From Liolophura sinensis (taxonomy: Eukaryota; Mollusca; Polyplacophora; Chitonida; Chitonidae): a stretch of 64,000 bases of DNA. Below are positions 15,047 through 58,800 of the stretch, piece after piece (within the stretch, counting starts at the first letter, position 1; every line of letters begins with the position of its first letter). The stretch spans positions 29,908,628 to 29,972,627 of the forward strand of contig NC_088305.1 of the NCBI RefSeq assembly GCF_032854445.1. The letters run 5' to 3'. The notes under the pieces were generated by a model, which was not told the origin of the DNA, searched no databases, and saw nothing but the letters and a program-made list of their open reading frames with translations. Both the position numbers and the translations under genes were made by a program.

Positions 15047-18000
15047 CTGAAATAAAAACATAATGAAATAATTAAGGTAATTTACTTATAATAATAATAA
15101 TAATAATGATGTTCACATAAAAGGCTGTCATGCACCTATCATGGGAAGGTAATTTTTTCCAGAGCCAGGTGAAAACAAGAAGTTTTAACACACTATTCAA
15201 GGAAATTTCTAAAATGTTTGGGCCAAACTTCAGCATACCAAAACTACTTTTTGATGTTAATATTTTTATCTTTAGTTTTGTCTTTGCTCACCTTATTTTT
15301 GTAGCTTTCGTCTTTGATATCACTTAAGTTTGTTATCACATTATGAAAAGTTCCCCACACTCCCGTTTCCAGGCTACGGGCTCCCACCTGTGGAGAAAAG
15401 GAACAATGAGAATTAAAAAGTCAGCAATCACACATCACCCAGACTCATGCAAGGATATTCCCATCATCCTGTACAAAATTCACACAGAATATCCTGTAAC
15501 TATGCAAAATGTACCACACATGTATATGTCTAAAAAAAAAAGGCATCTCATCAATATCTTGGGCATTTTTGTCAGGAATGTACATGTAAAGTTTTGTGTA
15601 TATTTTATTGTGTCCTTTAAAATATCTTAGACCATCCTACCCGTAAGTCTGACATACAGCTGATGTTGCCCAACCGAGACTATCTTACCTGTTAGTCTGA
15701 CCTACAGTTGATGTTTCCCACCTGAGACTATCTTACCTGTAAGTCTGACATACAGCTGATGTCTACCTGAGACCATCTTACCTGTAAGTCTGACTTAGAG
15801 TTGATATTGCCCACCTGATACTGTCTTACCTGTAAGTGTGACCTATAGCTGATGTCTACCCGAGACCATCTTACCTGTAAGTCTGATCTACAGTTGATAT
15901 TGCCAACTTCAGCCAGTTCCTTCAGAGTGGGCCACAGGGAGTTAGCTATACGAGCTACAGTCAGGGGAACCTGGACAGCAGTTTGCAGACCCTGCTGCAT
16001 AGCCTGATCACGTCTGGAGATGATAAAAACACGGGGGCAATCAACAACAACAGTACAACCAGCAGAGCTTCATTTATGTCTGTACACACCTCTACCTTGT
16101 CAATCCTATCTCTTGCTCTCACTTGTAATAGAGGGGTATGCATGTGTGGTTAGTCCAAAGGGCCATAACCCTGAGTGTGGGAAGCTGGCCAGTAGAGGGC
16201 TCAGGGGAAGAGAGGAGCATGGGAGAGGGAGAGGATGACCAGCAGTTTTTATGTGTGTATGGTGGTGGCCACATGTGTTTTGTAGTGTCTTGTAAAGGAA
16301 GTCTTTTGTGGTGAATACAAGGATTACATGTACCCGTACTGGATGTGTTGTTGACTTTTTTCATGGTAGCAGAGCGAAACACAACACTCACCATGAAATG
16401 ACAGCGATACGCTGACATCCAAACCCACCCAAGAACACAATTCACAAGAATAATCCAATCCTGTTCATTCAGTTTTCTATATTTTACATACGATTCACAC
16501 TGGTAGACTGACTCTAACAACATCATGTTACAAATGGACATCACTCTCTTGCTGTAAGTTTGTATCTCGAAACCTGCGTACTGGAGGTCCGAGCTGCTTT
16601 CAGACAGGGGGTCATCAGGTACAATGTACATGTCAATAGTGTACTCCATGCACTTCCAACCCCCATAAGACAGATCAATGTCATATTAACTAAACAATAC
16701 TTTAATGCAGTCTTGCGCACTAAAAAAAATAACTGGTAGGTGGAAGGTCTGTCAGCAACCTGTGGATGGTTGTGGGTTTCCCCAGGGTTCTGTCCGGTTT
16801 CCTCCCAACATAATGCTGGCCATCGTCGTATAAATGAAATATTCTTGAGTACGGCGTAAAACACTGATCAAAAAAATAAATAAATAAATAAATAAATAAA
16901 TAGCTGAGAATACTCACACTTCTCTTTCTGCTTCTGTTTTCTGGGGCATTTTAAGAGCAAGCTACGGAAAAAAATAACCATGTATCAGTGGAGAATATGC
17001 TGGGAAATGTCGTTACTGCACTGACCTTGAATCTTCTAAAGCAAAAACTCACATTCAAGTCACTTATCAGTACTTTATTACACTTTTTGTAGATTTTATT
17101 TATTGGTGAGAACAGGATTTGAACTCTAATCTCTAGACACTAATTCAGGGCCCTGTTCCTCTATGCCAAGTACTAAATGTAATGATGCTAGCGTTACACT
17201 TACTACTGATGACATTAGTTAAATGACAATGTTTGACAGCTTTCAAATCACAGAAGCTTTGACAATTACCATGTATGTCCTTACCATGTATTCACTAAAA
17301 GCAGCTGCATCTGCGTCTATAAATGGCGTCAAATCCTTCATGGCTTTGTACAGAGGAGGTATCAATCCACGCATCTTCGTGTCCAGACTCGCAAACTTCT
17401 TGTTTCCATATGTCAGGAACCCAACCATACTGCCCAGTGCTGCCCCCTGGTAAAGGAAACACCACATGGGGCATAACTCCATGATCAGATGAAGTTGTTT
17501 CTTGTTCACAGGAAATGCTACTCATGTATTTAATTAATCACAAATTATTTCTGACACTATGACATAAAAATAAAATCTAGTAGACATTACATTTTCACTT
17601 CACCTAACACAACTTATGTGATATATGAGGTGCAAAATATCTCTGAAAATAAAAATCTAAAAATAAGTGAATTAAAGCAATTTAAAGGGATACAGAATCG
17701 ACACAATTAAACCCTGCAGCCTTGGTCACACTTGAATAAATCTGCCATACCTAGAATTCAGCTTAGGCGAGGCATAGCCTGGACTTGCCTATCTCTCAAG
17801 CCAGCCAACCAGAATTGATTCTGTATCCCCTTAAGTCAGACTTTTCAATTGGCAGATGATGATTTCTCAATTTTTAACTTTTCTTTACCTTAAAATCCAT
17901 AGCTTATCTGTTAGAAATCAGATATAAAGTGATAATCTTAATGACAAGATAACCTTAAATTAACCTCTGCTAGCATGTTAATAAAGCGGGGCCAAATAAC

Positions 18001-21000
18001 GGTCCACAGACAACCTACACGAAGGGAGGTAATTTAGTCATCCTTACCAAAGCTGCGGAAAGGGCTGCAACAGAGCCACCCCCAGGGGAAGGGGTGCGGG
18101 AACCCACTGTCAGGATAAACTCCTTCAGACCCATGGACACCAGGGGCCCCTCACGATCTTCCTGGACCATGTACCTGAAGTGTGTGATGTACTGACTGAT
18201 ATACACATATATGTAATTACACCAATACTCTTTATATGCCATCAAAATGTGATTACCATAAATAATCCAAAATTATACATACATTCAGAGCAATATCCAG
18301 AACAACTATTCAGGATTACACGTACATTCAGAGCAATATCCAGAACAACTATTCAGGATTACACATACATTCAGAGCAATATCCAGAACAACTATTCAGG
18401 GTTACACGTACATTCAGAGCAATATCCAGAACAACTATTCAGGATTACACGTACATTCAGAGCAATATCCAGAACAACTATTCAGGATTACACGTACATT
18501 CAGAGCAATATCCAGAACAACTATTCAGGATTACACGTACATTCAGAGCAATATCCAGAACAACTATTCAGGATTACACGTACATTCAGAGCAATATCCA
18601 GAACAACTATTCAGAATTACTTGTACATTTAGAGCAATATCCAGAACACCTATTCAGGATAACACGTACATTCAGAGCAATATCCAGAACAACTATTCAG
18701 AATTACTTGTACATTCAGAGCAATATCCAGAACAACTATTCAGGATTACACGTACATTCAGAGCAATATCCAGAACAACTATTCAGGATTACACGTACAT
18801 TCAGAGCAATATCCAGAACAACTATTCAGAATTACTTGTACATTTAGAGCAATATCCAGAACACCTATTCAGGCCTACCTTTACAGTTTAGCTGAAGAGC
18901 TCAAGAAAACACTAGTGTACTTACTCTATGATTCTCTCTTTGGGATTAAATGATCCAAAGGAATTAAGTCCTAATCTGTTAATTACCTGAAATAAAAAAT
19001 ATCACAAGGACTTCTATTCATATTAGGAAATGAACTGCTTATGTTATCATTACATTATCAGACAAAACTAAACTAAACTATGTATTGTAAACACATGATT
19101 ATTTCTCTCTCTCTTCATCTGTTTGAGGACTAAAGTCTTATTCCACAATATATCACTTATATCACAATGGTAAGTTTTATATGGGTGGAAGAAAGTAGTG
19201 GGGATGGGGGTGGGGGAGGGGGGTAGGCCCTTTGCAAGCAAGTGACCCACTTTCCCATGTCTCACCCGCTTATTTTCATCAAAGAGAGATCTCAACATGT
19301 ACATGTGTGCCACATTTGTGGACGGCAAGCGGTCTCCAAAAACTTTATCAAAGATCATCAAGCGAGCTCTGTCGACTGCTTATTGCCACCTGAACAAGGC
19401 CACGAGAAAACTGGAGGCCAGACAATCTCAGCAAATGCCTGTCAGGTCCTACACTACATTACACCTGAAAAAGGCCACGAGAAAACTGGAGGCCAGACAA
19501 TCTGAGCAAATGCCTGTAGGTCCTACGCTACACTACACACACTGAACAATATTTGTTCATATTTAGTCGTTTATGAAGCAGTGGACTGACCAGTGTAAGT
19601 TTTTGGTCCTCTTCCAGGATGAAGAGCTTCTCTTGCTCCATATAGTAGTCTGCCACCTGGAGTAAAGACTTGAGAGGGACCAGCCCCACGATCTGTGACC
19701 CAACCACTGCCAGATTCAGCTCCTGTCATCATCATGATAACATTTATCATCATCATCATAATATTTATGGTCATCACAATATTCATCATCATAACATTCA
19801 TCATCATCCTAGCATTCATCATCCTCATTCATCATCATCCTAACATTCAATGTCATCCTTAACATTCATCATCATCATAACATTCATCATCATCCTAGCA
19901 TTCATCATCACCATAACATTCATCATCATCCTAGCATTCATCATCATCCTAGCATTCATCATCATCCTCATTCCTCATCATCCTAACATTCAATATCATC
20001 CTTAACATTCATCATCATCATAGCATTCATCACCATCCTAGCATTCATCACCATCCTATCATTCATCATTCTATCATTGATCATCCTATCATTCATCATC
20101 ATCCTCATTCCTCATCATCCTAACATTCAATATCATCCTTAACATTCATCATCATAACATTCATCATCATCCTAGCATTCATCATCATCATCATAACATT
20201 CATCATCATCCTAGCATTCATCATCATCCTCATTCTTCATCATCCTAACATTCAATATCATCCTTAACATTCATCATCATCATAGCATTCATCATTATCC
20301 TAGCATTCATCACCATCCTATCATTCATCATTCTATCATTGATCATCCTATCATTCATCATCCTAAGATTCAATATCATCCTAAACATTCGTCATCATTC
20401 TAAAAATTCATCATCATCCTAACACTCATCAACATCATCACAGCATTCATCATCACTCTAACATTCATCACCATCCTAAAATTCAATATCGTCCTAACTT
20501 TCATCATCATCCTAAACTTCATCATCATCACAGCATTCATCATCATCATACTAACATTTATCATCATCATCACAACAATGCACCACACTTTGTAAATAGA
20601 AAATATGACAATAAATAATAATACCCTAAATGCTCAATTGCATACGTGTATGATATACGCTGAAGCAATCACAATTTTTCCCCCTTGTCAAAATAAAAAA
20701 CACACAAAAACACTAGTATATTAAAGACAGATGAATTCGCAAAATTCAAAGCTACAAAGAATGCTATTTTGATTGTCTAGACAGAAACAATATTCTTAAA
20801 ATTTGACAAAAACAACACTTTTTGGACAAAAGCAAAAATGGTGCATTTAGGGTAGACTAATGACCATTACTTCAGACAAAAACACATATGTATAGGAATC
20901 TCCTAAGATATAAAACATGTAGTTGAATAAATGAAAATTAATCAACAGTTTATATTCATAATATCCTATCATTAATGAATTCATAAAATATTACGTTTTA

Positions 21001-27000: not shown

Positions 27001-30000
27001 TTTTATATGTTAGGCCACATCCTGAAATACACATCTGGAAATAAAAGCATTTCATGTATCCTTTAATTCAGACTTAGGCTGAACATAAAAACTCTTTACT
27101 GCTCTACAATTATGAGTTACAGTGAAAATTGTTATTTTAGAACTTTAAGATATTTTAGACATTCATAACAAAAACTGAAAATTAGTGTTTTAAATTTAAA
27201 TCTAAGTTCAGGAATGATACCAGTAATTTAGACTGTCTGACTTAAGTCTCAAACAGCTCCTGGGGACGATGTCATTTTACATGAAGAATTCACATTATTA
27301 ACTCTAAGATAAAAACTTTCCTGTCTGCATGACAGTCGTCTGCACAGAGAACTGTTACAGATAGTGCTAGCCATATCTGTATCTTAACAACTATGATCAA
27401 TGATTGATAAAAGCTAATTTAAGACTACATCAGAACCACAGATCTCTGTCTCAACTATTTGATCATGAGGCAGATCAAAGCAGGGACTGCCTGGTATTTC
27501 ATGTCACATCAAGTGTTTGATCTAATGTCATGTAACACAAACCTCTCATGTATACTGCAAATCTCCAACACTTTCAAGCACTTTTTTCATTGGAATTTAT
27601 GCATTATACAACTGTTTTGAAAATGATGCCAAAATTAATTTATCTGTGTCATTAAAGATGCAAATTTCAAGAAACTGCAAATTATTTCTCTACGCCCAAT
27701 AGTACTCTCAGAATGTTTCGAAACGTTGGTTGCCGAGGCAGTTGAAAAGGTTACAGAATTAGGGTATGTGCATGCAATTTATTATACATTGTACCAACAC
27801 GTTTTCACATCTTAAACTTGAAAACAAATGGAAAGAATTTAAATTGTGGTTAGTACATCATTTTAATTGTAAGGAATCAGTGTATACATTTTGGGCAAAG
27901 CATTTTATTTGTATCTCTGACTGTATTTCTGACTTAAGTCTTAAGACATCTGATATATACGGGCCCAGGTATGGCTGAGGCTTTAAGTTGAGATACTTGT
28001 CAAGTACCCATCCGAAGGGCAATGGTTTATTCAGGGCAAGTCAAGCGTCAGACAGTTGCGGTGAGCTATTTTTCTGGACATTGTTCAATGGTCGTCTATC
28101 TGACATATTCTACATTTTGGTGTTTTGACATTAACACAACCCTGTGTGTCAGAGACACTTACCCGGGACGCCAAGTTCAGTGGCCAGCCTCTCTGCGAAT
28201 TCACGCGCACACTCCACACAGTCCTCCATGGTCACATTCTGTACGGGAATGAATGGGCACACGTCCAGCGCCCCCATACGAGGGTGCTCACCTGTGAAGA
28301 GGGACACAAGTTACGCACCTCACATAACAATCTTGATCAGAAACTTGATCAGACACAGGTTTTACACCTCAACTTGACTGACTTGATCTGACACAAGTCA
28401 TACACCTCAACATGATTGATTTGATCAGACACAAGGTATATCCTTCAACATCACAGACTTGATCAGACACAAGTCCTGTACACCTCAATATGACAGGCTT
28501 GCTCAGACAAGTCCAGTACACCTCAACATGACTGACTTGATCAGACACCAGCTATACACCTCAACATCACAGACTTGATCATACAAGAGTTATTTATTCA
28601 TTCACTTATTTACTTGACTGAAGTCATACAATGCATTCAGGAATATTACACTTATATGATGGCAGTCGGCATGACAGTGGGAGGAAACAGGTAGGGCAGA
28701 GCCTGGGGGAAACCCACAACCATCTTCCCATATAAGACCCAGTGTTCTATGGTTTGTAGGTTTGTAGGATTTTTTTTCTGTTGTTATTTCATGTCATACT
28801 GAAGATTTTCACTTATATGCTTAAATAATGGCCAGAGAATAGAGACTGTGGAGAGATTTATCACTTTGGAAGTTGACTGGGCAACTTCTGGGTGAAGATC
28901 ATGAAGAATTACATGTAGGTTGAACTGAGAGGATTGCGGGGAGTCTGGGCAGGGTCTGGGAGGAGAGTGAACAGAGACTGGGAGCAGTGAGCAGGCCTTG
29001 GGACGAGGAGTGTGTGGGAAGAATCTAAGCAGGGTGTGGGAAGAGATTGAACAGGGTCTGGGAGGAGACTGAACAGGGTCTGAGAGCAGTGAGCAGGGTC
29101 TGAGCAGACCAGGACAAAGTGTGGGGGGAGGCTTAGCAGGGCCTGAGAGGAGCCTCAGCAGGATCTTGGAGAAGACTTACACGGTCTGGGAGGAGACTGA
29201 TTAGGGTCTGGAGGTGACTAAGCAGGCACTAGGAGGGGCCTCAGTAGGATCTGGGAGAAGGGCTGGATGAGACGGATGAGTTCAACCATTCTGAGAGGAG
29301 ACTTTGAGGTAAAGCAGGGTACTAGGAGTATCTAACAAAGTACCAGTGAACTTACTGGTGAAATGTCACTGAAAAATGACAACCAATGCATCCTTACCAC
29401 TGTGTCGAGACATGTCAATAAGCTGATATGCAGCTCTGGCTCCACTTAAGGCACCCTCGACGATCGCCTCCGGAGGTCCAACAAAAGTGTAGACCGTCCG
29501 ATTGGTGGACATGCCTGGGTCTACATCCAGTAAATTGCATCCTTCTGTGGAACCAATAGCGTTGGCTATTGCCTCAATGACCTGAATAATAGACGGAAGG
29601 TAATTACATGCATTATAAAGTCAGAACAGTTACATTTGCCACTTTATACTTATACACAGATCAGCTATCCTTTGTGATGAGAGAAGAGAAGAGGCCAACT
29701 ACAATGTTTCACTGTGGTTTTTACCACACATACTACTGATTAAGCAATTAGAAAAAGCTATGGATTATATGTTGTCAAACGCAGGCTATATTTGCATATG
29801 CTGGAAGGTCATTCAGTTCATCTGGTTATCTTCATTATTCAATAAAATAAATAAATTGATAGTTTTCAGAAGAAAAAAAAAACAAATGAAACTTAAATAA
29901 ATTTAAATAATATTAGACATACATTCACAGCCACTCAACACTAAAATATTGTGACACACACTTTCTACCTTTAAATAATAAATCATGTACATATACATCT

Positions 30001-39700: not shown

Positions 39701-42700
39701 CCACAGGTCATAGATTTTTTGCCCTTGATAGGGTTATAGGAGCTGTTGTAACAATGAAAACGTTATGTAGTTGTTGTCTTCTCTACGTCAGTGCGAGTAC
39801 ATTTTTTTCAGTACATATTTTAATTGAAGAGTTCCAGTACTTGTCCAGAACTGGGTTGCTGATAGGTTGTAGAAGTTTGGCTCACAGGAGAGATTAAAGA
39901 TGTTCTTTGAGAAACCGATGTAGTGAAAAAAGTTAGCCTGTCCAAAATACCCTTTGCCGTGGTAAAGTCAAAATTGAGGAACGGTCCCCTGGGCTTAAAT
40001 CTTATTCCTGGTCTCATCTCACAAAGCTAATGTTATAACCAGGCTTACATCTATGTCCTAATTAAGATCAATTTGCGCTATTTGATTTTTGTTTGTTTGT
40101 TTTCTCAGACTGCTTCAGAAATTTTGGAAGGTTTACTGGACGAAAATGATGAGGAGACAGAAGTTTGGTATCTGCTGGGTTGGTTGAACTACCTGCAGGG
40201 GGAAGAATATAGGGGTAACGCAAGGTACTACCTGAGGAAGGCAGCACAGGTAAATATAGAGGAGGGGGCAGAAGTGTGGTACTTACTGGGCTGACTGAAC
40301 TACCAACATGGGGAGGAATATAGGGATAGCACTTGGTACTACCTGATGAAGGCAGCACAGGTAAATATAGAGGAGGGGGCAGAAGTGTGGTACTTACTGG
40401 GCTGACTGAACTACCAACATGGGGAGAAATATAGGGATAGCACTAGGTACTACCTGAGGAAGGCAGCACAGGTAAATATAGAGGAGGGGGCAGAAGTGTG
40501 GTACTTACTGGGCTGACTGAACTACCAACATGGGGAGGAATATAGGGATAGCACTAGGTACTACCTGAGGAAGGCAGCACAGGTAAATATAGAGGAGGGG
40601 ACAGAAGTGTGGTACTTACTGGGCTGACTGAACTACCAACATGGGGAGGAATATAGGGATAGCACTAGGTACTACCTGAGGAAGGCAGCACAGGTAAATA
40701 TAGAGGAGGGGGCAGAAGTGTGGTACTTACTGGGCTGACTGAACTACCAACATGGGGAGGAATACCTGAGGAAGGCAGCACAGGTAAATATAGAGGAGGG
40801 GGCAGAAGTGTGGTACTTACTGGGCTGACTGAACTACCAACATGGGGAGGAATATAGGGATAGCACTAGGTACTACCTGAGGAAGGCAGCACAGGTAAAT
40901 ATAGAGGAGGGGGCAGAAGTGTGGTACTTACTGGACTGACTGAACTACCAACATGGGGAGGAATATAGGAATAGCACTAGGTTCTACCTGAGGAAGGCAG
41001 CACAGGTAAATATAGAGGAGGGGGCAGAAGTGTGGTACTTACTGGGCTGACTGAACTACCAACATGGGGAGGAATATAGGGATAGCACTAGGTACTACCT
41101 GAGGAAGGCAGCACGGGTAAATATAGAGGAGGGGGTAGAAGTGTGGTACTTACTGGGCTGACTGAACTACCAACATGGGGAGGAATATAGGGATAGCACT
41201 AGGTACTACCTGAGGAAGGCAGCACGGGTAAATATAGAGGAGGGGGTAGAAGTGTGGTACTTACTGGGCTGACTGAACTACCAACATGGGGAGGAATACC
41301 TGAGGAAGGCAGCACAGGTAAATATAGAGGAGGGGACAGAAGTGTGATACGTACTGGCCTGACTGAACTACCTGCATGGGGGTGGGGAAGGAGATATAAG
41401 GGTAAGGAGGAAATATAGGTCACATTTCATTCTTTTCTCATTTCAGAAATCATAGTTCTTGAAGTTCGTACATAATTGACAATTATAGAAAAATATTTAA
41501 AAAACATCTGGACTGGCCATTGCTAAATGTGTTAAAATCAAAAGACCTTAATGTAGAAATTTTTATGGTTTCCTTAGAAATAGTCAATTTTTTTTTGTCC
41601 AAGTGGTAGCTATAAATGGTAAAACTGATGCTAATTAGATTTGCTACTGCTGTTGAGAGCTGTGGTAATTTGCCTTTTCCCTCCTATAGACAAGCCACAT
41701 GTACATTCGTGTGCATTCATTCATTCATTTGTGACGACAATGGGTCAACACAGCAATTATATTGTATTGTTATATTAATATTCAACATCCAAATGTTTCT
41801 TTTCTCAAGAACACGCCATTTTGCACATATGTGCAGTTCAGATGAGGAATGAAACTGCAATAAGTTACCTGTGGAAATGAAAGCAAATTGGGTGAATGTC
41901 TTGTGTTCCAGGTGTACAAGAAGACAAAATGTGAAGACAAACCATTGTTGAAGCACACAGAGGAGCTGCTGGTAGAATTAGGACCTGGTGAGTCTGGAAC
42001 ACAATGCGTTTGGAAGAAAGAACTGGAGTGTAGATATATCTCACAATGGGTTTACTTAAAAGTTAGCTCTAGATAGCTCTCTACCTTCACTAACAATACG
42101 GGGGTAGAGCTGTAGAACGTTCTGTTTGATTCTTCTGCAAGAGTGCTTCGAAGATCATTGCCACATGTTACAACGCAACCTGTCATGATGGCCGTGGTGA
42201 GTGTAAACAATGTCACCTCCAGTGTGTGGAGAGTGGTGAGTGTAAACAATGTCACCTCCAGTGTGTGGAGAGTGGTGAGTGTAAACAATGTCACCTCCAG
42301 TGTGTGGAGAGTTCCACTGAAGCTGCCTGAATGTAGTTCATTGTTAACCTACAAGTTCTGCAGTAGTTCACTAAAACAGATAAGAACTAATAGCCAAAAA
42401 AAGCTGGTCCACCTGTGAAGTCAATTATTCAGTTCTGCAAAGTTTTAAACGTGGCCAAAGGCTCTGGAAGTCACTAGTTTTTGTTGACATACAGAACACG
42501 GCTGTCATTACAGGCTGGTTTAATTTTAACATGAGGCAATGATCTTTGAGGCTGGCAGTCTTTTAAGAACTGAAGGTAAGAGAACCGATTTGTAGCGTGT
42601 TGGCATGTACTTTTAAAGGAGCCATGAGGAAAATGCCTGAGGTGAGAGTTGATAGAACTCCGGCAGTACTGCAAGAGAATAAAATAGACCGTTCTGTATC

Positions 42701-43173
42701 TCTACCCCGTAGTGTTTGTTAAGGTGTGGAGGTATCTAAAGCTACTTAAAAGTAAAGTAATTTAAATTTGTCTCCCAGGTATTTGTAAACTCAAGCCAAG
42801 ATTTCAAGCTTCTGACACTGAAAAAAGAAGGACTTTTGGTGGAATTTATACTGTATTTGTACACCTCCTTAAATACTCCATTGTTACATATGGTATAGTT
42901 TAGAGATTTATAGAAATAGTGTGTAGATTTTGTCAACATTTTACTTTTAGTTTGTTATAAACTGGGAGGAGAAAATATCAAGCATGACAATGTGTGATAA
43001 ACTGGTGAGGTCTGGCTAAATAGTGTTCAGTTAATCTAAATTATTACTTTACAGGTGAGGAGGAAGAAAATGAGGATGATGGGGATTGTGTTGATAACAG
43101 TGTTGAGGATAACATGGAGGATGAGGAGAACTGGGAAACAGATTCTGAGGATGAAGAGAGAATGGATCATTAG
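30731..43173 (+). CDS. Acl4-like TPR protein (probable assembly chaperone of RPL4), 11 exons, complete
   Basis: The joined exons give 387 codons starting MGKRKFKKTVAG. The order is: a short basic N-terminus; a linker (to about residue 44); TPR-type helical repeats (about 45-330, for example CQRALELEPDNVRVLETTG, AVEKAIEADGENPEAYQLMA and VWYLLGWLNYLQGEEY); and a very acidic tail (about 349-387, EEEENEDDGD). This plan and length match Acl4, which in yeast holds newly made ribosomal protein uL4 (RPL4) until it joins the pre-60S particle. The family call rests on my reading of the repeat sequences and acidic tail; a different TPR protein is less likely. The gene is driven from a region shared with FTCD. 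Intron 6 has three SINEs and an antisense ORF. Exons 9 and 11 have spawned tandem arrays. Confidence 0.85.
31200..31292 (+). mobile_element. SINE-A 3' fragment
   Basis: GTATAAGTGAAATACTCTTG, GCGTAAAACACTAATCAAAT and an AAATA tail, in Acl4-like intron 1. Confidence 0.82.
31975..32142 (+). mobile_element. SINE-A, 5'-truncated and diverged
   Basis: GGATGGTTGTGGGTTTCCTC, a missing CCACCATAATG core, then AAACACCAAATAAATAAATA. Confidence 0.72.
32233..32321 (+). CDS. Acl4-like exon 2 (residues 15-44)
   Basis: Acceptor CTCTTACAG; reads VARKKTEVNSKENATKKTAA then KYKIDQLLDK; donor GTAAAC, phase 0. Confidence 0.87.
33437..33583 (+). CDS. Acl4-like exon 3 (residues 45-93)
   Basis: Reads AQDCIDRFEYEVAQKFCQRA then LELEPDNVRVLETTGTLLLE, a clear TPR helix pair. 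Donor GTGAAG, phase 0. Confidence 0.92.
33920..34195 (-). mobile_element. SINE-A, full length
   Basis: Reversed poly-T, GATTGGTGTTTTACGCCGTA, CAGCATTATGGTGGGTGGAA, GAACTCACAGCGACCGCATT and the tRNA-like head GCGCTAACCGACTGAGCCAC. The best-preserved head, with an A-box-like motif on minus. Confidence 0.92.
34444..34596 (+). CDS. Acl4-like exon 4 (residues 94-144)
   Basis: Reads CFGRAVEVSPDTGYSKYMYL then GQLFEGAQAVQCFQKGIELM, a second TPR unit typical of the Acl4 family. Confidence 0.92.
34640..34800 (-). mobile_element. SINE-A, very diverged
   Basis: Reversed ATGCCTTACTCAAGAATTTTT, GGGGGGAGGAAATG and a degraded head (ACAGGCCACATTGGTAA). Confidence 0.5.
35370..35470 (+). CDS. Acl4-like exon 5 (residues 145-177)
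   Basis: Reads DISSAYCSIAEIYMTDS and ends in phase 2 at GTGAGT. Fits the SxAYCSIAEIYMTD block of Acl4-type proteins. Confidence 0.92.
35800..35923 (+). CDS. Acl4-like exon 6 (residues 178-219)
   Basis: Completes Cys at the junction, then FEENAEELCKTAVEKAIEAD and PEAYQLMASLQLSQQQTQ, another TPR unit. Donor GTGAGG, phase 0. Confidence 0.92.
36050..36288 (+). mobile_element. SINE-A, near full length
   Basis: ACAATGACCCAGGAGCCTCC, GAGTTCAAGTCCAGCTCATG, GTTTCCTCCCACCATAATGC and CAATCAAATAAA. Confidence 0.9.
36536..36690 (-). mobile_element. SINE-A, truncated
   Basis: Reversed TTTATTTATTTATTTGATC, TATTCAAGAGTATTTCACTT and CATGACCATCCGCAGGTTGC. Confidence 0.88.
36770..36988 (+). mobile_element. 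SINE-A, 3'-truncated, intact tRNA-like head
   Basis: GGCCTCTGTGGCTCAGTCGG, TTAGCGCGCTAGCGCAGCG and GTGAGTTCAAATCCAGC give clear A- and B-box-like motifs. Ends abruptly in ACGGAAAAAAAAG. Confidence 0.9.
37520..37765 (-). CDS. Hypothetical 81-residue ORF, antisense in Acl4-like intron 6
   Basis: Starts MGNFRRGDIIQIDKKGRARV, continues INVEILSIDDDIELSPRRLS, and ends in a Ser/Thr-rich tail. The first half could form a small beta-barrel like those at the ends of integrases or KOW-type domains, but I do not recognise the family. The frame is also open upstream, with low-complexity residues. It may be a single-exon gene, a degraded mobile-element fragment or chance. Confidence 0.3.
   Translation of the reverse strand: MGNFRRGDIIQIDKKGRARVINVTRDNRINVEILSIDDDIELSPRRLSNGADILRSPIGRRLSHACSLQSRSTQTATSLYY
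38285..38386 (+). CDS. Acl4-like exon 7 (residues 220-253)
   Basis: Reads LAKENINKSVSLWLPKY, followed by an acidic linker ending EQIDPLQ. Donor GTAAAA, phase 0. Confidence 0.9.
39192..39260 (+). CDS. Acl4-like exon 8 (residues 254-276)
   Basis: Reads MCPLTFETRMAASKILIEVE then EFE; acceptor CCATTTCAG, donor GTGAAT, phase 0. Confidence 0.9.
40109..40249 (+). CDS. Acl4-like exon 9 (residues 277-323)
   Basis: Reads TASEILEGLLDENDEETEVW, then YLLGWLNYLQGEEY and RYYLRKAAQ, the last TPR unit. Donor GTAAAT. Its last 111 bases are the first unit of the tandem array that follows. Confidence 0.93.
40250..41345 (+). repeat. Exon-derived array: 10 extra copies of Acl4-like exon 9 with donor
   Basis: Exon 9's last 111 bases form unit one. 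Further donor copies (CACAG or CACGG, then GTAAAT) begin at 40361, 40472, 40583, 40694, 40784, 40895, 41006, 41117, 41228 and 41318. Spacing is 111, or 90 in two units lacking the same 21 bases; both keep frame. Every copy has TGA where the exon has TGG (LLGWLN), so reading past the true donor ends within 15 codons. Confidence 0.95.
41912..41987 (+). CDS. Acl4-like exon 10 (residues 324-348)
   Basis: Reads VYKKTKCEDKPLLKHTEELL then VELGP; acceptor GTTCCAG, donor GTGAGT, phase 1 out. Confidence 0.9.
42193..42311. repeat. 39-nt minisatellite, 3 copies, Acl4-like intron 10
   Basis: Unit GTGAGTGTAAACAATGTCAC plus CTCCAGTGTGTGGAGAGTG. Each copy offers a consensus donor (GTGAGT). It does not match exon 10. 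Confidence 0.9.
43055..43173 (+). CDS. Acl4-like exon 11, terminal (residues 349-387 and stop)
   Basis: Acidic tail starting GEEEENEDDGDCVDNSVEDN and ending ERMDH-TAG. Acid-rich C-termini are characteristic of Acl4 proteins. Two degenerate tandem copies of this exon lie just downstream. Confidence 0.88.
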
Positions 43174-43177
43174 GCAG

Positions 43178-43290: not shown

Positions 43291-43299
43291 TGAGATCAA

Positions 43300-43512
43300 A
43301 TTAGTCAGATAAGGAGGATGGGTTGATAAGAGTGGCGAGGATGAGGAGAATTGGGAGACAAACTCTGAGGATGAAGAGAGGATGGATCATTAAGCAGATA
43401 AGGAGGATGGGTTGATAAGAAAGGCGAGGATGAGGAGGATTGGGAGACAGACGATGAGAGAGAGTGCAGCATTATGCAGATGAGGTGGATAGGTGACGAT
43501 AACATTAGGAAT
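43300..43512 (+). repeat. Two degenerate copies of Acl4-like exon 11
   Basis: Units starting ATTAGTCAGATAAGG (43300), ATTAAGCAGATAAGG (43389) and ATTATGCAGATG (43471) repeat the exon text GATGAGGAGAATTGGGAGAC and TCTGAGGATGAAGAGAG. The exon itself is the first unit, the SINE lying between it and the second. Confidence 0.85.
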
Positions 43513-46655: not shown

Positions 46656-46732
46656 TCAATGAAAACTGAAACAGCACGATACTAATTATTCTACATAATG
46701 TCATGATCTGCTTTCGTTTTTCCTGGTTGTAG

Positions 46733-46833: not shown

Positions 46834-49800
46834 GTGAGTTTGAAGTATAAATGCTGTCGTTGCACACAGGATGTATTTTAGTGCTTAGCGCCTTGTTATT
46901 AAATGAGGGATCATCCCAGCTATTAGCTTCAGGTCCAGGCTGTGTAGTCTGTTGTTCATTCCTGTTAGCGTTTGTGGACTACTTTGCATGACACTTTGCT
47001 GGTCAAGCAAATTTTTTTATATTGTGCTTATGGGGAACTCGTAAAACTCCTTCCCACCTGTAATAAAAGGGTCCAAAGCTGTTAACTTGTCCTTGCTTCC
47101 TTTATTTCATCATTCTTATTGATGTATGTGTGCTAATAAAACACCTAGGAATACAACAGCACTGCATCATCACAAAGGAAAATGATGCGTTCTGCTGTGG
47201 TTTAGACCGTTTTAAGTAGCCTGTCTGTGAATCTCCCATTCTGTATGGTTATTCTCACTTAAGGGAAATCCTTGATGACTTAAATCAAAATTTCTTCTGC
47301 AGGCTTCCTACGAGAGAAATTTGATTATCAACTATATCTTGACTTTGTCCTTTTCCAAGGGAGTAAAAAAATATAAAAATTTCTTGTTTGCTGATTTCTT
47401 TCTATAGCCTAGTTTATAAATTCAAACCATGAATCTAGTCTACCATATGAATGTAAAACAAATGAAAGACCAGTTGTGAATTCTGATCCCACCTATTCAT
47501 TTTGTCAGCGGCTGTACCATAGCGTACCACTATGGTAAACAGAAGTCCCTACAGATACTGGCCACTCGCTACACCCGGCTCGAGGGTCCTCACCCGGGCA
47601 TCGACAAGGTACGTCCCTTAGACGAAAGTGACTTCTAGGATTTTATGCTGTGAAATTTTGTTTCAAAAGTCCAAGAATCTCTTGTTATTAGGAAATATTT
47701 GCATCTCTGTGAAAATGCCGTATGTCCCTGTAAGTTTCTAGGGTAACATCATATATTCAGGAAAATTTGGTAAAAGTAGACCTAGTTCTAAAGATATAAT
47801 TGTCGGAAATTTGTTCATTTTATTTGAGAAGTATTCATGATTATCATTTTGAATTGTTTGGTTTTACTTTAGTAGTCTGAGTGGCTTCTGTGACAATTAA
47901 TTTTGTGCAAATTTTAATTTTTTTTTTTCTGAAAACTTTTAAAAGATTATTTTGTATACTTTTCTGGAAGGAAATAAAATTAAAACAGAAACAAATTTAC
48001 TGAATAAACTTTCATTATGTGGCCTTGCCTTCATCAAGTGTACAAAGTCAACTCTACATGTGGATAAAAGAAAATAAAATCCTCCCAAAAATTAATTGAA
48101 TTAATAACTGAATGATTATGGCTTTACACCAAACGAATTGAATAGCTATTTTTAAAATAAATTATTGCGATCTTTATCTGACTTTTTCTAGCTCATGGAT
48201 TGAATTAACTGTTGTGAAAAATGTGTTCCAGGAAATTACAGACATGTGCACCTCCATGTTGTTTTGTATTCCTTGTAGATCTCAGAAAAACTTGAGAAGT
48301 CCACAAAGAGTAAGAATTTTGATAGAAGAATGACAGGAGCAGCCACCATGGATGCTATTCTTCAAGAGGTCAGTCCTGTATCTGATTGAATAATGATTAG
48401 AATGGCTGAGACTAAAGACAAAGAGGAGAAAGTTTTTAGAAGCTACATGACAGAGAAACTGTGTGTTGCTCGCTCTTGTACCATACATGTACACATGTCA
48501 GGGGATTGGGTTATGTCATGCAGCGGGGGGCCTCTGTGGGTGAAGTGGCTAGCACACCAGTGCTGCACAGTGACCCAGGCTTAGACTGCTTCTTATCCAG
48601 GCGTATGTGGGAGGTCTGACAGCAGCCTCAGGATGGTTGTGGGTTTTGCCTGGTTTCCTCTCACCATAATGGACGCTGTCGTATAAGTGGAATATTCTTA
48701 GTACCGCGTAAAACACCAGTCAAGTAAATAAATAAAATATATCATGCAGCTGAGCCTGAGTTTTATAGTGACACTGAAATTTATAGATTCAGCTTGGTTT
48801 TGAAATGACTAGATTCTTTAAGGGTGAAGCAGAAAAAGGGTCGAAAAAAATAGGTAATTGAATACCGGAATATTATAGCGACTCATTTACTTAGTCAGGT
48901 GTTTACAGGCAAATCCTTTTCTGTGTACTGACAGGTACTGGAGTATGCAATAAGGGATTACATCAAAACCTGGTACAGGCAAGTGTCTGAACATGACGGT
49001 TTCCTGGTGGAGATCCAGCAATGTGTACAGCAGGTTGTCATCATGTTTGCTCACAGGTAAATGACAGATTGTCATCGTTTTTGCTTAAAGGTAAACAACG
49101 TATTGTTGTCATGTTTGTTCAAAGGTGAACAGTGTGTATAACAGTGTGTATAGCAGATTGTCATCATGTTTGCTCTCGGGTAAACAGTTTTAAGCTGATT
49201 GTCATCATGTTTGCTCACAGGTAAACACTTTACATCAGATTGTCAGAATGTTTGTTCACAGGTAAACAACAGATTGTCATCAGGTTTGCTTATAGGTAAA
49301 CAACTGATTGTCATCATGTTTGCTCTCAGGTAAACACTGTACATTAGATTGTCATGTTTGCTCACAGGTAAACAACAGATTGTCATCAGGTTTGCTTACA
49401 GGTAAACAACTGATTGTCATCATGTTTGCTCACAGGTAAACACTGTGTTTAGCAGATTGTCATCATGATTTCAACATGCACAGCTTTTTAATGTATGTGT
49501 ATGTCTTCTTGCTTCAGGACGAAGTCTATTGATTGGCTGCCTTACTTCACCAATCGCATGGTAGACGACTTCGCCTCTCACATTCGGCTTTACCGGAGAG
49601 CATTGGATCTGTCACGCATTTCAAAAGATGGTAAACAAATATTCATACTGTTTGGTTTGAGTTGACTGGATGTATGTGTGTTGTTCAAGTAGACCATGAC
49701 CATCGAAAGGTGGTGAATAAAATATGAAATATACTCATATTGTTTGGTTGGAGTTGACTGCAGGTAACTGTTGTCTGAGTTGACTGCAGGTAAATGTTGT

Positions 49801-52800
49801 TTGAGTTGACTGCAGGTAAATGTTATTTGAGTTGACTGCAGGTAAATGTTATTTGAGTTGACTGCAGGTAAATGTTGTTCGAGTAGACTGCAGGTAAATG
49901 TTGCCATACACATTTTTTTGTGTAACTATGACCTAAAGTGTTTTCCAAAAAAGTGAGTTTTTAAAGGCAAATGGATGTCATAAAGTATTACTTTTGGTGC
50001 TGTAACTTCCATTTTCCCAACAGGATGCCATACTATCTTCAAACAAACCCGAAAACACCTTTCTATGATCAGTAGAACTCTCACAATCATAAATAAATAA
50101 TGTTGAATATAACATAACACATCAAGTTCAAATATAAAACTCGCTTCACAAGCACTGTAACTGAAATATCATTGACTATTGTATCAACCATAATGGTTGT
50201 ATTAAAAAATATGTATAAAATAGAGATGTAATTAACAGAAATAAAAAATACCCCAAAAATGAGAAGTAAAAAAAATAAATTTTTTCCACAATTTTGTTTA
50301 TTTGGCTTAGAGACATAATAAAGGGTTCCTTTTCGTTTATCCTGAATAGGAGCTGGACCTTGACCAAAATAGGTACAGCGCCATCTGGAAATAAAGGGAG
50401 ATAACTTAGTAATGTAGCCCATAATTGTGCATTCTTTCCCATTACAGAGGAGAAAGATGAGGAGAGTTTTTTCTTTGATCTGGAGCTGGAAATGGAGAAC
50501 AGTGTGTGCCGAGATTTGATCAGTACAAGTGCTGAAGATGAACGACGTAAGTATGAGCTTTTGTACCAAGGACATGATTTTTCTTGAAAGTGAGCGTGAA
50601 AGTGCTCAGTAATCAACAGGCAGATCAAAAAGACTTATTTAAGTGTTAAATGTAGCATTCATTTAGTACAAGGTAGTTTGGTTGTTGCATTCTGTGGCCT
50701 AATGGTTAGAGCGTCTGCCTTAAAGTCGGAAAACCTGAGATCAATCACATACATACATACATACATATATCTTTGTTACATTGGCAGTGGTGCAACAAGG
50801 AATACCACATTCATAAGAAATAGGGACTGGCTGGCTCAGTCAAAAGAAATAGGGACTCATGTTGGCTCGGTCTGAAAAAATATGCAGCCTTACTGGGACA
50901 GTCAAAAGAAATATGCACTCTTGGTTGCTCAGTTAAAACCTTGCTGGCTGATCAGAAGAAATATGCCGCCTTTGTTAGTCAGTCAGTAGGCATTTTATGT
51001 TCAGGAGCGGTTCTACCATCCGTACTCAAGAATATTTCACTGACACAACAGTGGCAGGGAAAGCATACAGAGTGGAGGGGCAGAGCCATATCTTGGGTCA
51101 TCTCCATTCTGGAAAACATTTGGGCTCCCAAACTGTCAGCTTCACAAACGAAACAAGCTGTACCAACACTAACACGGGAATTGAACAAAAATATGATGGT
51201 TTACTGATGACAAATTAAATTTTCATACAAATATCTTTCAGTTGCAGACTTTCAGGCTCTCAGAAGGCATCATTTTGAGTTGCGTTTTGAAATTTCTTTA
51301 TGCACAGTCACTATGTCACCATCAAGTTTGGGATCAGAGCCTTTAATGTTTTTCTAAATATATCCTTGGGGGGAACCCACAACCATCTGCAAGTTGCTGC
51401 CAGACCTTCCCATGTGGGACTGGACAGAAAGCCAGCATAAGTTCACAGCAATCGCATTGACGAGAGGCTCGTTGGCCATTGTTCTATGTTAACCACTCAG
51501 GCACAGAGGCCCACAATGCTAGCCGTAAGATGATCACATAAAAATGGTTTGCATAAATGAATAACTCATAAATGAATAAGATGTACATGTAACTTTTCTG
51601 GTCTAATGTTACAGAATATCTGCAGGATCTGAGTGAGGTGTTGTTGTTTTTACTGCTACCACAATCGGACTTCCAGAACAAACCATTCCGGTATATAGTC
51701 AGGGTGCGTTTCCATGAATATCTTCAATTCTCATGTGTCTGTTTTCTGCAGTAGAAACTTTAAAAAAAAAATTAAAGCTTTTTAAAAAACTAAAGACAAA
51801 GCTTTAATAACATAAATGACATGTATTTAATTCTTTCTGAATGAGCAGGTAATATTTAATCGCCTGTTATGCATAGTAATCCAAAGGAAGAAAACTGTAC
51901 AGTACCGAGTGGCAACATCCTGTCATAGTAGGGCTCATGCAGCTATCATATTGCACTAGTGGAATCATGGAATTTCAAGTTCAAACTCTTTTGTCGCTTT
52001 TTATAAAAAAAAGTTTCAGAAAAAATGATTTAGACTAGACGAACGATGAAGAAAATTGAGGAACTGAACATTTGTGAACATCAGAAGTTCCTAAGGTAAA
52101 GTTTCGCAGGGAAACAGGTGATCATTAAGTTAAGGTTGCCAAGACAAATATTGCCCTACAGTTTTCACAAATCACATGATATGGTTTGAACTGGAAACTC
52201 CCCTATTGCATTTTCTTTAAAGAACCTCCCTGCATGTAACACGGCCCTAGAACACAAAGATACACTTGTAAATAATTGTTCTCCTCTTTTTCTTTTCCTC
52301 ATTCTCGCCCTGTTCGCCACAGGAAGTGTTGGTCAATGGTATATTTATCCCAACTATTGACTTAGCCTCAGACCCAGATTACATCAATCAGACAATCGCC
52401 TGGTGGGTAAGTACATGTGCACCGAACTCTGTCAGGGGAGATAACTCCTGAGTGTAACACTCTTGTAAGATTTTTTATACCCTTATGTACTTATATGTTG
52501 CTACACAATTTCTGTTTACAGTTACCCTTTTGTGGCAACTGGAAACCATTTTGTAGTGTTTTGACACAAGTTGCTGTATTATACCAAAGGTTTGGTATGC
52601 AAGACAGCATTTTCAGAAGCACATTAAAGCCTTAAAATGATTCTTTTGATGCCAACACACATTTTTCTATCAAAATTTAATCAAACACAAAAAGTTTTAA
52701 GTGGCCTTATAAGGTGATGAATCAGCCAAGATCAAGCAGACTGTGTCACTTAAATAATGTTAAACTTAAGGCGAAATGCTTTAAATGAATTCATGCAGCA

Positions 52801-55800
52801 CAGCTTCTACCAAGAATGCCAAGTTTTCATAGTTGTTTGTTTGCTTTCAATTTGTTATTCTCTGACATCCATAAAATTTTGAATTTCTATCAAAGAAATG
52901 GTTTGTTTTAGTTTATAAAGATAGATCGGGATGTTTTCAGAAGTAAAATTGAATAAAGATTCTTCCAGTAGTCACAATGTGATCAATTTCTGTGACCGTG
53001 AAAGATTGATTATGGCTTAACACCAGAATGGGCAGTATTGCAGCTATATCGTGGCTTTCTGTTTCTGTATCTGTGTATGTACATATATCCCAAAACTTCT
53101 GTAAGACTGAAATTTTCAGAAGATATACACAGATAATGATAATGTGTTTGATATATATATTTCAATATCTGTGAATTGTTTTTCTCTGTTTCGTAATAGA
53201 TTTTCTAAAAGAACTGTGTAATTTTCTTTTCTTACAGTGTAAAGAGACAAGTTTCAGTAATGAAACATTCATGAGTGTGCTGAAAACGACGGAGAATATT
53301 GAGGAATTAACGGCTGTTAAAGAGAAGGTGCAGCGAGATATTTTCAAGTGGCGGTCCAAAGACTCTGGTGGCGATGATGGTTAGGTTTAGTTCGCTTCTT
53401 CAGAGTGACACAGAAATTCTCAGAGAACGACCTTAAAAATTGCATCAAATTAACAAAAGTGATAGAATAAACAGTTTTGGTAGTTGTTTTTTTTGTGTGT
53501 GTTTTCTCATCACATTTTCTGGCTGGTTTTGAAAATTATGGTTAATTGGTGGAGAATTGAACTAATATTTTTTTAATTTGCATAGCTAAGTTTTAAAGTA
53601 CACGTAATCTTTATTAAAGAAAAAGATTGGTTAAAAATCAGGAGAAGGCTAATTGAATACTGTCTCTAAAAATTTGTTTATTTACTGTTATTTTTTTTTT
53701 AATTGAACAGAGTAAGGTTTGTGAATTAAATGATGTCAAATTTCTAAATAAAAATTTGGCATTTATGAACCATGCTGCCAGTATCAGTATCATACTATGA
53801 TGTTACATAACTCTGTTTTTGTTATATTCAGCTACTGGAGAATTTTTTGATTACAGTATTAAAGTAATAAGGGTTTAATTTAATAAAGATGGGTAATAAG
53901 AACTACTCCAATGCAGAAAATTGAGCTTAAAGTGGGAAGAAAGCTCTTGTGAGCCTCAGAGTACTGTACCTAAATGCTGGCTATATGGTTCATACAGCCA
54001 CCATAGAATTCAAATAGCTAAAAATAAAAAAAAAAATAATTGAAAGCATCTTTATGCTCAGTTTTCAGTTGTCTGTTGGCTGAGCCTTAATTCATTTTTA
54101 GTTTTACATTTTAAAGCACCTTGGCTGAAGAAAAGCATACGCTGTTTTCCTTCTCAGATACTGTGATAAAGCAGAACCTGAGTAGTTTACTGTTTGTGAA
54201 GGATGTGTGTGAGAAAAGGACAAAGAGGCTTCAAGAGGGTCCAGATGATGCTGACAATGATGTGAGTTATCTCCCCTGGCTTTCCCCTGATATTAATGAT
54301 GCTTTATCATCTATCTGTATTAGTGTTGTGTATCAAGTAACTTGGAGTGCCCAGGTTAAATCAGTGGCTCTTGGCAAGCTACTTATGAGCTTTATTCACA
54401 GGTGACAGTCAGAATTGATCTTGTGCGAATGTTACATTGTGCACATGACCACGTATTGTAACCAAAGCCACTGTGAACATTGGGAAAGGGGGAATCTACA
54501 GATCCTTTACCCAAGGGCTGTGTTGACCCCTGGACCCCGTAGAGAAGCAGATAACATTAGTGTTACTAATGTATGCTGTCATTTGATCTGCCTGTCTCCT
54601 TGTAGCAGCTGTGTTTCTGCTATATTGTAGGAATAATATTGAGTGAGTGAGTGAGTGAGTGATTGGGGTTTTAAGTTGTAGGAATGGTATAGCACGGATG
54701 TGTTATGTGTGGCGAAATTAAAGGTTCTTATTTGATTTGAGAAACTAGAGAAAAGTTTTGTATTTTCTTCAGAATTGTGAACTGTAAATAAAGCACCTTT
54801 TGTCTGAATTACAGGATCCTGAGTTTTGCCGAGTCATGTCAGCAGGATCCCACCTCTTTATCATGTCTCTTGATGATGTCATCAACAACAACATAGCCTT
54901 ACAGTATTTTATTGGTAAGAGTTACCGAGGCAATCTGATGGAATTTTGAAGGCTGTCTTCCAGAATTGGTTCCAGAAGTTCCAGAACTTTTCCACCAGCA
55001 TTCACAGATTCAAATTGATGTACATTTACTTATATTTTCTAGCTCATTTTCTCAAAAGTAACTGAGCAAGATCCAGGTACATGTAATTATGGGAAAGTTT
55101 TCATTCCAAAAAACAAAAAAAAAAACAACAAAAAAAATTAAGTGAAAGTTTTTTATATTTTTTTTCAAATTCTTTAAACTCAGTGGTGTAGCTTTAACTA
55201 AAGTTTGTTTACAGTAATTGTTAATACAATGTACTTTTTTTTTTTAAAATTTGGATCCTTGTTTGTAATTTCTTATCTCTTTCATTTTTGTCAGTTACGT
55301 TTGACCTTTATTTGCAGAATTTTTAAGCAGCAGGGGTGGACAGCAGTATTTATTCTTTTATTTAAATGTTGAGGTAAGGCTTACTAAATAAAGTAACGTT
55401 GAAGATTAATTTCACAGTCCATTTGGTTTAGCTACAAATATGACAGAATCCCTAGACTTTTTTTTACTTACGTCATCCTCGGAGCATCAACAGCCAATAT
55501 CACTTGCATATAACTTACTTAGGTAAGTAAAGTTTAGCATAAAATCTTTCCAGGTAAATGTATATATATACTGAAAATCTAGTACTATTATTGGCTGAAT
55601 CAGTTGCATGTCAGAAGTATGTGTATCATAAAAATGTTAAAACAGACAGTTATACCAAATTCATTTCCGTAAGAATCATGGACGTGTAAAATTGAAAAAA
55701 ATAACCCATGGTTCACATTCAAAATTTTTTAAATCCTTTTTTTTTTAATCCAGTTGATAGAAAAGATACACAACAATCTAAGATCATAAAACATTACATT

Positions 55801-58800
55801 TGGTGCTGAAATTGTCTTATTGAAAGATTTCTGAGGTTTGTTTGGAATGCAGAGTGATATTCATCAAAAGTAATACTTGACATTTTATTTGCCTTGATGA
55901 AGTTTAGGTCATTTACATGTTACATGTTATTTATTATCTTACATGTTTCCAGGGTTACAGAACAGCAGCCGAGCAGCAGATAGTGATAGCTCAGGAGGAG
56001 AAGAAGAAAGACGCTCAGGCACTAAAGCCAGACTTGGAGTCTCTGAGACGTTTGGCGTCCATTATATATGACCAGTACCTTTCTGACAAGGTATTTATTT
56101 ATTTATTTATTTGGCTGGTGTTTCATGCCAGATTCAAGAATATCTCTCTGTTTTTACAATGGCAGCCAGAAGTATGGTGACAAGAAACTTGGCAAAGATT
56201 GAAGGAAACAAACAACCATTTTAGAGGCCAAAAAATGTCCAAAAAATATTCCTTTTCAGATCTTAAATGATTTTAGATCATTTACGGATTGCAAAATTGT
56301 GTTAAGAATTTCCCCAAAATGGTTTTCCCTTTGCATTTTTCTTTCCTCCACCCATAAACCTGACTGCTTTTATATAAGTGAAAAATGTTTAAATGCTGCA
56401 ATAATACACCAATCAAAGAAATAAATTAATACAGAAATTTGTCACTAAATTCCCCGTGATTCTTGATAGTTATTGGCTGATTAGACTTTGATTTATTTAT
56501 TTGATTGGTGTTTTACGCCATACTCAAGAATATTTCACTTATACGACGGCGGCGTGAAAACCGGGCAGAGCCCGGGGGAAACCCACGACCATCCGCAGGT
56601 TGCTGGCAGACCTTCCCCACTTACGGCCGGAGAGGAAGCCAGCATGAGCTGGACTTGAACTCACAGCGACTGCATTGGTGAGAGGCTCCTAAGTCATTAC
56701 GCTGCGCTAGCGCGCTAACCGACTGAGCCACGGAGGCCTCGGCTGATTAGACAAGTCCAAATACCAACATACAGATATCAATGTATGTGAGGATTTTAAC
56801 CCTGGGTTTGACATTATAATCCTGAATCGCAGGTGTTCCCAACAAGGGGACAACTAATACTACACAGTACATATTGTACAGATGTACACTGTATGTGCTT
56901 CATAAATGTTTCATCACAGTTTTTGGTTGACAGACATCGCTCTCTCTCTCTTTTTCCCATGAAGGCAACAGAAAGAATCCGAGTGGATGATCCGGCAGTT
57001 AGAAGAACTCATCAACAAATCAAAAACAAGATGTTGTCAGAAGATGTATTTGATGAGGTCCAGTCTAGGGTAAGTAGATGATATGTTTGAACTGAACATC
57101 TGGGGCCTGGATGATACAACCGGTTTTGGCTTTTGTCTTGGCCTTGTAATTACTGACTGATTATGGCTGAACAAAACACCGTGGAGAAAAAACTATCAAT
57201 ACCCAGTAAAAATTAAAATGATTCAGGTACAGCTACAATTTGAAAGAGATGAAAACTTATTAAAACTTATTAAAAGTCACAACTGCTGGCCATTTAATTT
57301 TCGAACTGACCCCTAGGACCTTGGGGAAAGTGTAGTTTTTGATGCATTTTTACTGCTAAGAAACAATTCTGAGCATTTTTTTTTATATATTAGGACACAT
57401 TCTTAACTGCATCTTAAGAAACTAAAACCATATATTTGATATATCCTTTGACCTATTGTTATGAAAGAATGAAGGAATGGCTTTTGATGTTGTAGGTGTA
57501 CCAGAAGAGATAGCTTTGCAATTTGATGTTGTAAGTGTACCAGAAGAGATAGCCTTGCAGTTTGATGTTGTAGGTGTATCAGAAGAGATAGCTTTGCAAT
57601 TTGATGTTGTAGGTGTACCAGAAGAGATAGCCTTGCAGTTTGATGTTGTAGGTGTACCAGAAGAGATAGCCTTGCAGTTTGATGTTGTAGGTGTACCAGA
57701 AGAGATAGCTTTGCAATTTGATGTTGTAAGTGTACCAGAAGAGATAGCCTTGCAGTTTGATGTTGTAGGTGTATCAGAAGAGATAGCTTTGCAATTTGAT
57801 GTTGTAGGTGTACCAGAAGAGATAGTCTTGCAATTTGATGTTGTAGGTGTACCAGAAGAGATAGCTTTGCAATTTGATGTTGTAGGTGTACCAGAAGAGA
57901 TAGCTTTGCCGTTTCCTGTTGTAGGTGAACCAAAAGAGACAGCATTGCAATTTGATGTTGTAGGTGTACCAGAAGAGATAGCTTTGCAATTTGATGTTGT
58001 AAGTGTACCAGAAGAGATAGCTTTGCAATTTGATGTTGTAGGTGTACCAGAACAGGTAGCTTTGCCGTTTCCTGTTGTAGGTGAACCAGAAGAGACAACA
58101 TTGCAATTTGATGTTGTAGGTGTACCAGAAGAGATAGCTTTGCAATTTGATGTTGTAGGTGTACCAGAAGAGATAGCTTTGCAGTTTGATGTTGTAAGTG
58201 TACCAGAAGAGGTAGCTTTGCAATTTGATGTTGTAGGTGTACCAGAAGAGGTAGCCTTGCAGTTTGATGTTGTAGGTGTACCAGAAGAGATAGCTTTGCA
58301 GTTTGATGTTGTAAGTGTACCAGAAGAGGTAGCTTTGCAATTTGATGTTTTAGGTGTACCAGAAGAGATAGCTTTGCAATTTGATGTTGTAAGTGTACCA
58401 GAAGCGGTAGCTTTGCAATTTGATGTTTTAGGTGTACCAGATTTTACATGGAGAGAAGTATTATGAAGCCTTCCTGCAGAGCAGTCAGTACATCAAGCTT
58501 CTGTACGACCTCAACCTTCTTCCCACAGACGGGAATAGGGACGAGGAAGAGGATAGAGATGACGTCAGCCTCAGTGATGGTAAGTCTACAGCATTTGATT
58601 GGTCAGTTGTTGATAACTAAGGGGTCTGTAGGGTTACACCTCGTCTGTCAGCTATTGATAACTAAGGGGTCTGTAGGGTTACACTTCATCTGTCAGCTAT
58701 TGATAACTAAGGGGTCTGTAGGATTACACCTCGTCTGTCAGCTATTGATCCCTAAGGGGTCTGTAGGGTTACACCTCGTCTGTCAGCTTTGGATAACTAA

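Follow-up and report, generated by a model that had tools for sequence, protein, structure and literature searches.

Minisatellite-like tandem duplications across exon–intron boundaries are known in amphioxus as "mirages", in Adh3, the globins BflGb6 and BflGb9, PGBD5 and TnC (PMC3087553, PMC3902484). As far as the available text of these accounts goes, they lie at 5' and 3' boundaries of several genes and hold many copies with AG/GT signals, in units of 10 to 160 bp; the phenomenon has been treated as one of cephalochordates and as a possible source of new introns (PMC3087553). Here we describe similar arrays in a mollusc, the chiton Liolophura sinensis. They are found in three genes, FTCD, an Acl4-like gene and an SNX13-like gene, of a 64,000-nucleotide stretch (NCBI RefSeq assembly GCF_032854445.1, contig NC_088305.1, positions 29,908,628 to 29,972,627; hereafter the window, whose own coordinates are used below), and in unrelated genes elsewhere in the genome. 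The repeat unit spans the boundary and includes the splice dinucleotide, and both donors and acceptors are involved, in several genes (three and one in the window, six and five outside it). The arrays are thus mirage-type minisatellites in a mollusc; the phenomenon itself was already named in amphioxus. With a probability of about 0.78, we read them as mirage-type minisatellites that are tolerated since their extra copies fall in the intron. For the amphioxus mirages, reverse-transcription PCR (RT-PCR) and length-instability evidence is cited, whereas the chiton arrays are known from one assembled sequence; on the other hand, the chiton arrays were tested against random intron positions, whereas the amphioxus accounts, in their available text, describe single genes.

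Several related cases come from sources accessible in part, and what is said of them here refers to those parts. In the Rogers model, as cited in PMC3087553, introns are gained via tandem duplication of AG/GT sites, and potato RdRp is a case of intron gain by tandem duplication (PMC4974935). The likeness is that the tandem duplication carries splice words; in that model it makes a new intron, whereas in the chiton existing introns are lengthened. Human genes in segmental duplications contain internal tandem repeats, some of them at exon–intron boundaries, and there too minisatellite expansion alters exon–intron structure; these genes are recent paralogs whose new introns are backed by transcripts, and intron-held arrays of junction copies are not described (PMC2812944). 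Exon-edge copies are not mentioned for the intronic 27-bp minisatellite of abalone TSSK1-like (PMC6905558), the intronic simple repeats of Conus (PMC3862624) or the genome-wide tandem repeats of another chiton, Acanthochiton rubrolineatus, in which TRF assigns 9.21% of the genome to such repeats (PMC11545220). Earthworm metallothionein genes have intronic minisatellites and tandem exon duplications, and splice-junction arrays are not described in them (PMC12783039). No molluscan mirage was found in our literature searches, which reached few subscription journals.

Exon edges within repeat units of the window

The window arrays were examined by direct reading of the letters and with Tandem Repeats Finder (TRF). 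Four of them hold an exon edge together with its GT or AG inside the repeat unit, three at donors and one at an acceptor; both methods bear out an earlier note on this DNA, which had singled out these four. FTCD lies on the minus strand, its identity confirmed exon by exon by alignment to the FTCD chain 1tt9 of the PDB. Its exon 12 (15875–16013; alignment, gene finder and reading) is the source of a donor array at 15629–15904 on the same strand (TRF and reading), with a unit of 48/45 bp that contains the last 30 bases of the exon plus the GT donor. Five further copies of ...GATCAGACTTACAG followed directly by gtaaga... are spaced by 45–48 bp, and GT is present in all. The Acl4-like gene, on the plus strand, owes its label to TPR matches and to the naming in the earlier note. 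The exon called exon 9 there (40109–40249; reading and gene finder) gives rise to a donor array at 40151–41381 (TRF and reading) with a unit of 111/90 bp, including 99 exon bases plus the donor. The SNX13-like gene, also on the plus strand and labelled from weak PXA-domain matches together with the same naming, has two such arrays (both TRF and reading). At exon 4 (48935–49056; reading), a donor array with a unit of about 34 bp occupies 49031–49467; it comprises 26 exon bases and a GTAAA-type donor, and GT is kept in all nine further copies. At exon 15 (58432–58579; reading and gene finder), an acceptor array with a 39-bp unit extends over 57483–58441; the unit consists of the acceptor TTGTAG and only about 10 exon bases, and AG is kept in 18 of its 24 copies.

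A fifth array was said to copy the terminal exon of the Acl4-like gene, and it does so in degraded form. This coding exon (43055–43174, plus strand, read by eye) ends in ...DEERMDH followed by TAG, and copies of its end lie at about 43308–43480 on the same strand, in the 3' untranslated region (3'UTR; TRF and reading). The boundary copied here is the stop codon and not a splice site. Exon models of the Acl4-like and SNX13-like genes come from a small gene finder that had been trained on the chiton genome, and visual reading put right the donor of SNX13-like exon 4 as well as the last Acl4-like exons: the finder recovered the exon 4 acceptor and missed its donor, the exon being confirmed by reading, and set the Acl4-like terminal coding exon in another frame, for which the by-eye reading was used.

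The 31 modelled introns of the window hold 15 arrays, four of which span a junction; random placement would give 1.4 (P = 0.03, a post hoc value because the earlier note chose this case). The test used Acl4-like exon ends at 40251 (exon 9) and 41990 (the next exon), which are 2–3 bases off; the spanning counts are unaffected.

That such arrays are assembly errors is hardly credible. Tandem arrays are generally error-prone, but the genome (609,464,459 bases in 632 contigs) was built from PacBio HiFi reads at 14x with a mean length of 8,347 bases (PMC11068029, at least in its accessible part; the species was published as L. japonica, and the name corrected to Liolophura sinensis). The same source lists five tissue RNA-seq sets and cites gene models deposited at figshare. 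The mean read length (about 8.3 kb) exceeds every junction array described here, the copies differ among themselves, and the pattern is also present in unrelated genes.

Array placement in introns of other genes

For an independent sample, the genome was searched with seven protein families, regions with neighbouring exon matches were taken, and introns were modelled with the aid of reading frame and splice-site scores in addition to the match coordinates. Of 197 introns tried, all in genes outside the window, 177 were used. The CCT family provided 61 neighbouring match pairs, 16 of which were skipped for gaps or overlaps that were too large; 45 were tried and 44 modelled, with one low-score intron later dropped. 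A second batch (nine pairs skipped) yielded 64 of 69 tried introns, and the dynein genes (one pair skipped) 70 of 83. Very long introns are under-represented because the second batch favoured fairly compact exon pairs. Near-intronless or fragmentary CCT-family matches, on contigs C5 and C4 and at C6:7942446 and C11:16419765, were left out, and kinesin matches and some myosin pairs (e.g. C8:20021696) also lie outside the sample. An array was counted as spanning when TRF gave it at least 8 exon bases, and as near when it came within 30 bases of an exon without spanning.

TRF arrays cover 21% of the sampled intron bases, with 47 arrays in 34 introns. Eleven of the 47 span a junction, against 5.5 (P = 0.008) or 4.0 (P = 0.0004) expected from uniform placement, depending on the repeat period taken as the unit; this is 2 to 2.7 times random placement. 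Each of the 11 comes from a different region, six at donors and five at acceptors, and about one in 16 sampled introns contains a junction array. The first set of 107 introns taken by itself has eight spanning arrays for 2.7–3.3 expected. An excess of about twofold over random placement is suggested by these counts, resting on 11 arrays. Near-exon arrays show no significant excess in the same 177 introns (six against 5.2–5.7; considering only arrays of at least 60 or at least 100 bases, the expectation is 4.0–4.6, P 0.19–0.30). The supposed preference of arrays for exon boundaries is therefore supported for spanning arrays and not for near ones.

Where intronic minisatellites are dense, some might overlap a junction by mere chance and without any preference. 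The share of intron sequence in arrays and the several spanning arrays expected at random make this ordinary overlap worth considering, but the combined sample departs from it, as does the window count with its post hoc character, and we regard it as a possible, though rather unlikely, account.

The recurrence of edge words was examined with 24-mers of 12 exon and 12 intron bases, each sought within its own intron. At up to 5 mismatches they recur at 14 of 354 edges, against 4.7 expected per intron (P 0.0003) or 7.8 from pooled introns, and at up to 7 mismatches at 16 of 354, against 7.4 or 10.6; at least one match (in the region labelled L065) depends on a single copy. The dynein introns give 5 of 140 edges, against 1.5 per intron (P 0.013) or 3.0 pooled.

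In the window, one array near an exon without spanning it is found in the 31 modelled introns, against 2.2 expected from random placement of the 15 arrays. The earlier note had three arrays starting within about 30 bases of an exon, and their placement is looser than stated there. At FTCD exon 7, an ATGATG-type array without exon bases (19726–20570, minus strand, TRF) ends 3 bp before the acceptor, so that some of the acceptor region (19722–19740) may come from the array; a second array begins 52 bp past the donor of this exon (TRF). The other two are more distant by TRF: the array that precedes the acceptor of FTCD exon 3 (28336–28593, minus strand, no exon bases) stands 44 bp away, and the one in the intron that follows SNX13-like exon 5 (49747–49903, plus strand, unit with TGCAGGTAAATG, no exon bases) 116 bp from the donor, with a partial unit about 20 bp from the exon seen by eye. 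Further long minisatellites with no tie to a modelled exon are located at 5902–7551, 11535–12501, 58602–59146 and 60190–60683, with units of 55, 78, 45 and 49 bp, respectively; the one at 58602 begins 23 bases past SNX13-like exon 15, in an intron outside the modelled set. Scanning the window for Rfam families and tRNAs gave nothing. Elsewhere in the assembly, contig C99 has seven COX1 matches, one of them partial, about 15.5 kb apart (8348, 23885, 39496, 54929, 70450, 85975 and 101504). This series, which is either a concatemer of mitochondrial DNA in the assembly or a tandem copy in the nuclear genome, is additional to the 15,209-base mitochondrial contig C632, whose gene order we take to be the ancestral molluscan one and which thereby indicates the phylum. 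A GFP-family search, run to test for a lancelet, found no match, and none in its control genomes either.

Ancestry of the copies and use of the splice sites

In 12 of 14 arrays, the mean identity of the intron copies to the exon-edge copy equals or exceeds that among the copies (two ties to two decimals), a comparison biased upward because similarity to the exon edge was the criterion for recovering copies. Examples are the arrays cctC1a (0.89 to the exon edge against 0.80 among copies) and L046 (0.84 against 0.72). Being as close to the copies as these are to one another, the exon edge is probably their ancestor; derivation from exon edges, claimed for the window, finds support in copy identity and extends to the sampled genes. 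A pattern that would fit concerted evolution, with copies closer to each other than to the exon, is seen at Acl4-like exon 9 and in the array L066, and on this measure not in the other 12. At Acl4-like exon 9, an old degenerate copy was probably re-amplified, since the eight intron copies compared have 15 changes in common relative to the exon; read by eye, the copies have TGA in place of the exon's TGG.

A raised duplication rate at the boundary itself, due to splice words, co-transcriptional structure or exon composition, would be in line with an excess that is significant only for junction-including arrays and not for near ones, and with an exon edge that looks ancestral. Among 30 non-junction arrays, however, strong donor-like words occur in four on the sense strand and four on the antisense strand, and acceptor-like words in four and three, with no sense-strand excess of either kind. 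The proposal that the splice motif itself seeds amplification is not upheld by these counts, and the Acl4-like 3'UTR copies reproduce a stop-codon boundary instead. Active seeding thus seems to us a doubtful explanation. The idea that the non-junction arrays are themselves old mirages was rejected on the same lack of sense-strand excess.

Two further observations concern the sampled introns. Region L065 (C2:23754450-23761450) contains an intronic array of 2.5 kb; its unit has 55 bp, and its antisense strand has the score of a strong donor. In a dynein heavy chain region (L072), a diverged exon copy with 85.5% identity over 69 bases links 2103–2292 and 2810–2878 (near C1:54196082 and 54196681); it was considered as a mirage and rejected, as it fits an alternative exon, possibly a mutually exclusive one.

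Selection might have kept the copies as decoys, the extra splice sites tuning splicing or giving unproductive transcripts. In 18 arrays or candidate arrays, the splice dinucleotide is kept in 184 of 209 copies, and the splice core is better kept than its flanks in 9 of 11 donor cases, as decoys would require; the core exceeds the flanks in only 4 of 7 acceptor cases, however, and overall by 0.90 to 0.88, comparisons confounded by unit ends, with part of the donor contrast apparently due to units ending just past +6. A frame preference of the units was rejected, the first extension being a multiple of three in 4 of 15 junction arrays (FTCD exon 12, Acl4-like exon 9, SNX13-like exon 15 and cctC8), about the one third expected by chance. 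We regard selected decoys as improbable. More improbable still is a coding role, in which the mRNA would take up the copies as additional in-frame repeats. Such an extension is conceivable at FTCD exon 12, where added stretches of 45, 93 and 138 nt stay open and in frame, and at cctC8, whose 66-nt units are free of stops in one of the two frames that the exon may have (the exon frame is ambiguous in 6 of the 15 arrays, which matters for cctC8 only); in the other 13 of the 15, use of the first recovered copy would bring a frameshift or a stop. Most arrays would for that reason require the authentic site to be used.

Probable tolerance of junction-spanning duplications

On the reading that we prefer, a short stretch straddling an exon–intron junction would first undergo tandem duplication, with slippage or unequal exchange as the presumed cause, and later be amplified. 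With a splice site in every unit, the copy joined to the exon would still work, splicing there presumably being normal, and the further copies would land inside the intron, downstream of the donor or upstream of the acceptor. Duplications wholly within exons would mostly be purged by selection. Junction duplications would be tolerated in the way intronic ones are, because the exon-joined copy would work and the extra copies stay intronic, and the same logic may apply to the Acl4-like copies past the stop codon. Tolerance of junction-spanning duplications would explain the existence of the arrays. The earlier note went too far in its premise that copied exon edges should be foreign to ordinary intronic minisatellites, because the exon stays whole when its junction is duplicated and chance should yield several such arrays; the lancelet mirages had been left out of account.

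Besides the bias of the identity comparison, several points weigh against mirage-type tolerance. Copies are closer to one another than to the exon at Acl4-like exon 9 (0.98 against 0.84) and L066 (0.89 against 0.80), and use of the authentic junctions is something we infer from the sequence. Copying is not confined to the junction, since, in the first set, words taken from the donor-side exon 18–48 bases in from its edge are met again in the intron in 9–12 of 321 cases, little below the rate at edges (9–10 of 214). Two smaller sets of introns agree with ordinary overlap: the first 52 introns (44 CCT, 8 FTCD), in which edge words recur at 3 of 104 edges against 3.0–4.0 expected, with no excess, and the 70 dynein introns by themselves, in which three arrays span a junction against 1.3–2.1 expected (P 0.11–0.36, not significant). 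Finally, the roughly twofold excess is not explained by tolerance, because pure tolerance predicts none, and its cause we infer rather than observe.

A wider proposal is that tandem duplications in minisatellite-rich animal genomes are born by preference at junctions, with independent recurrence in lancelets and chitons, lengthening of introns, and spare splice sites continually laid down for new introns or exons. We put it forward tentatively, as unlikely on present evidence. Mirages that occur in a mollusc at a measurable rate, with an excess in the sample, bring the growth of introns through duplicated junctions within reach of counts in many genomes and of tests on RNA-seq data and long reads that already exist. 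If junctions are indeed preferred birthplaces, the spare splice sites may be recruited for new introns or exons.

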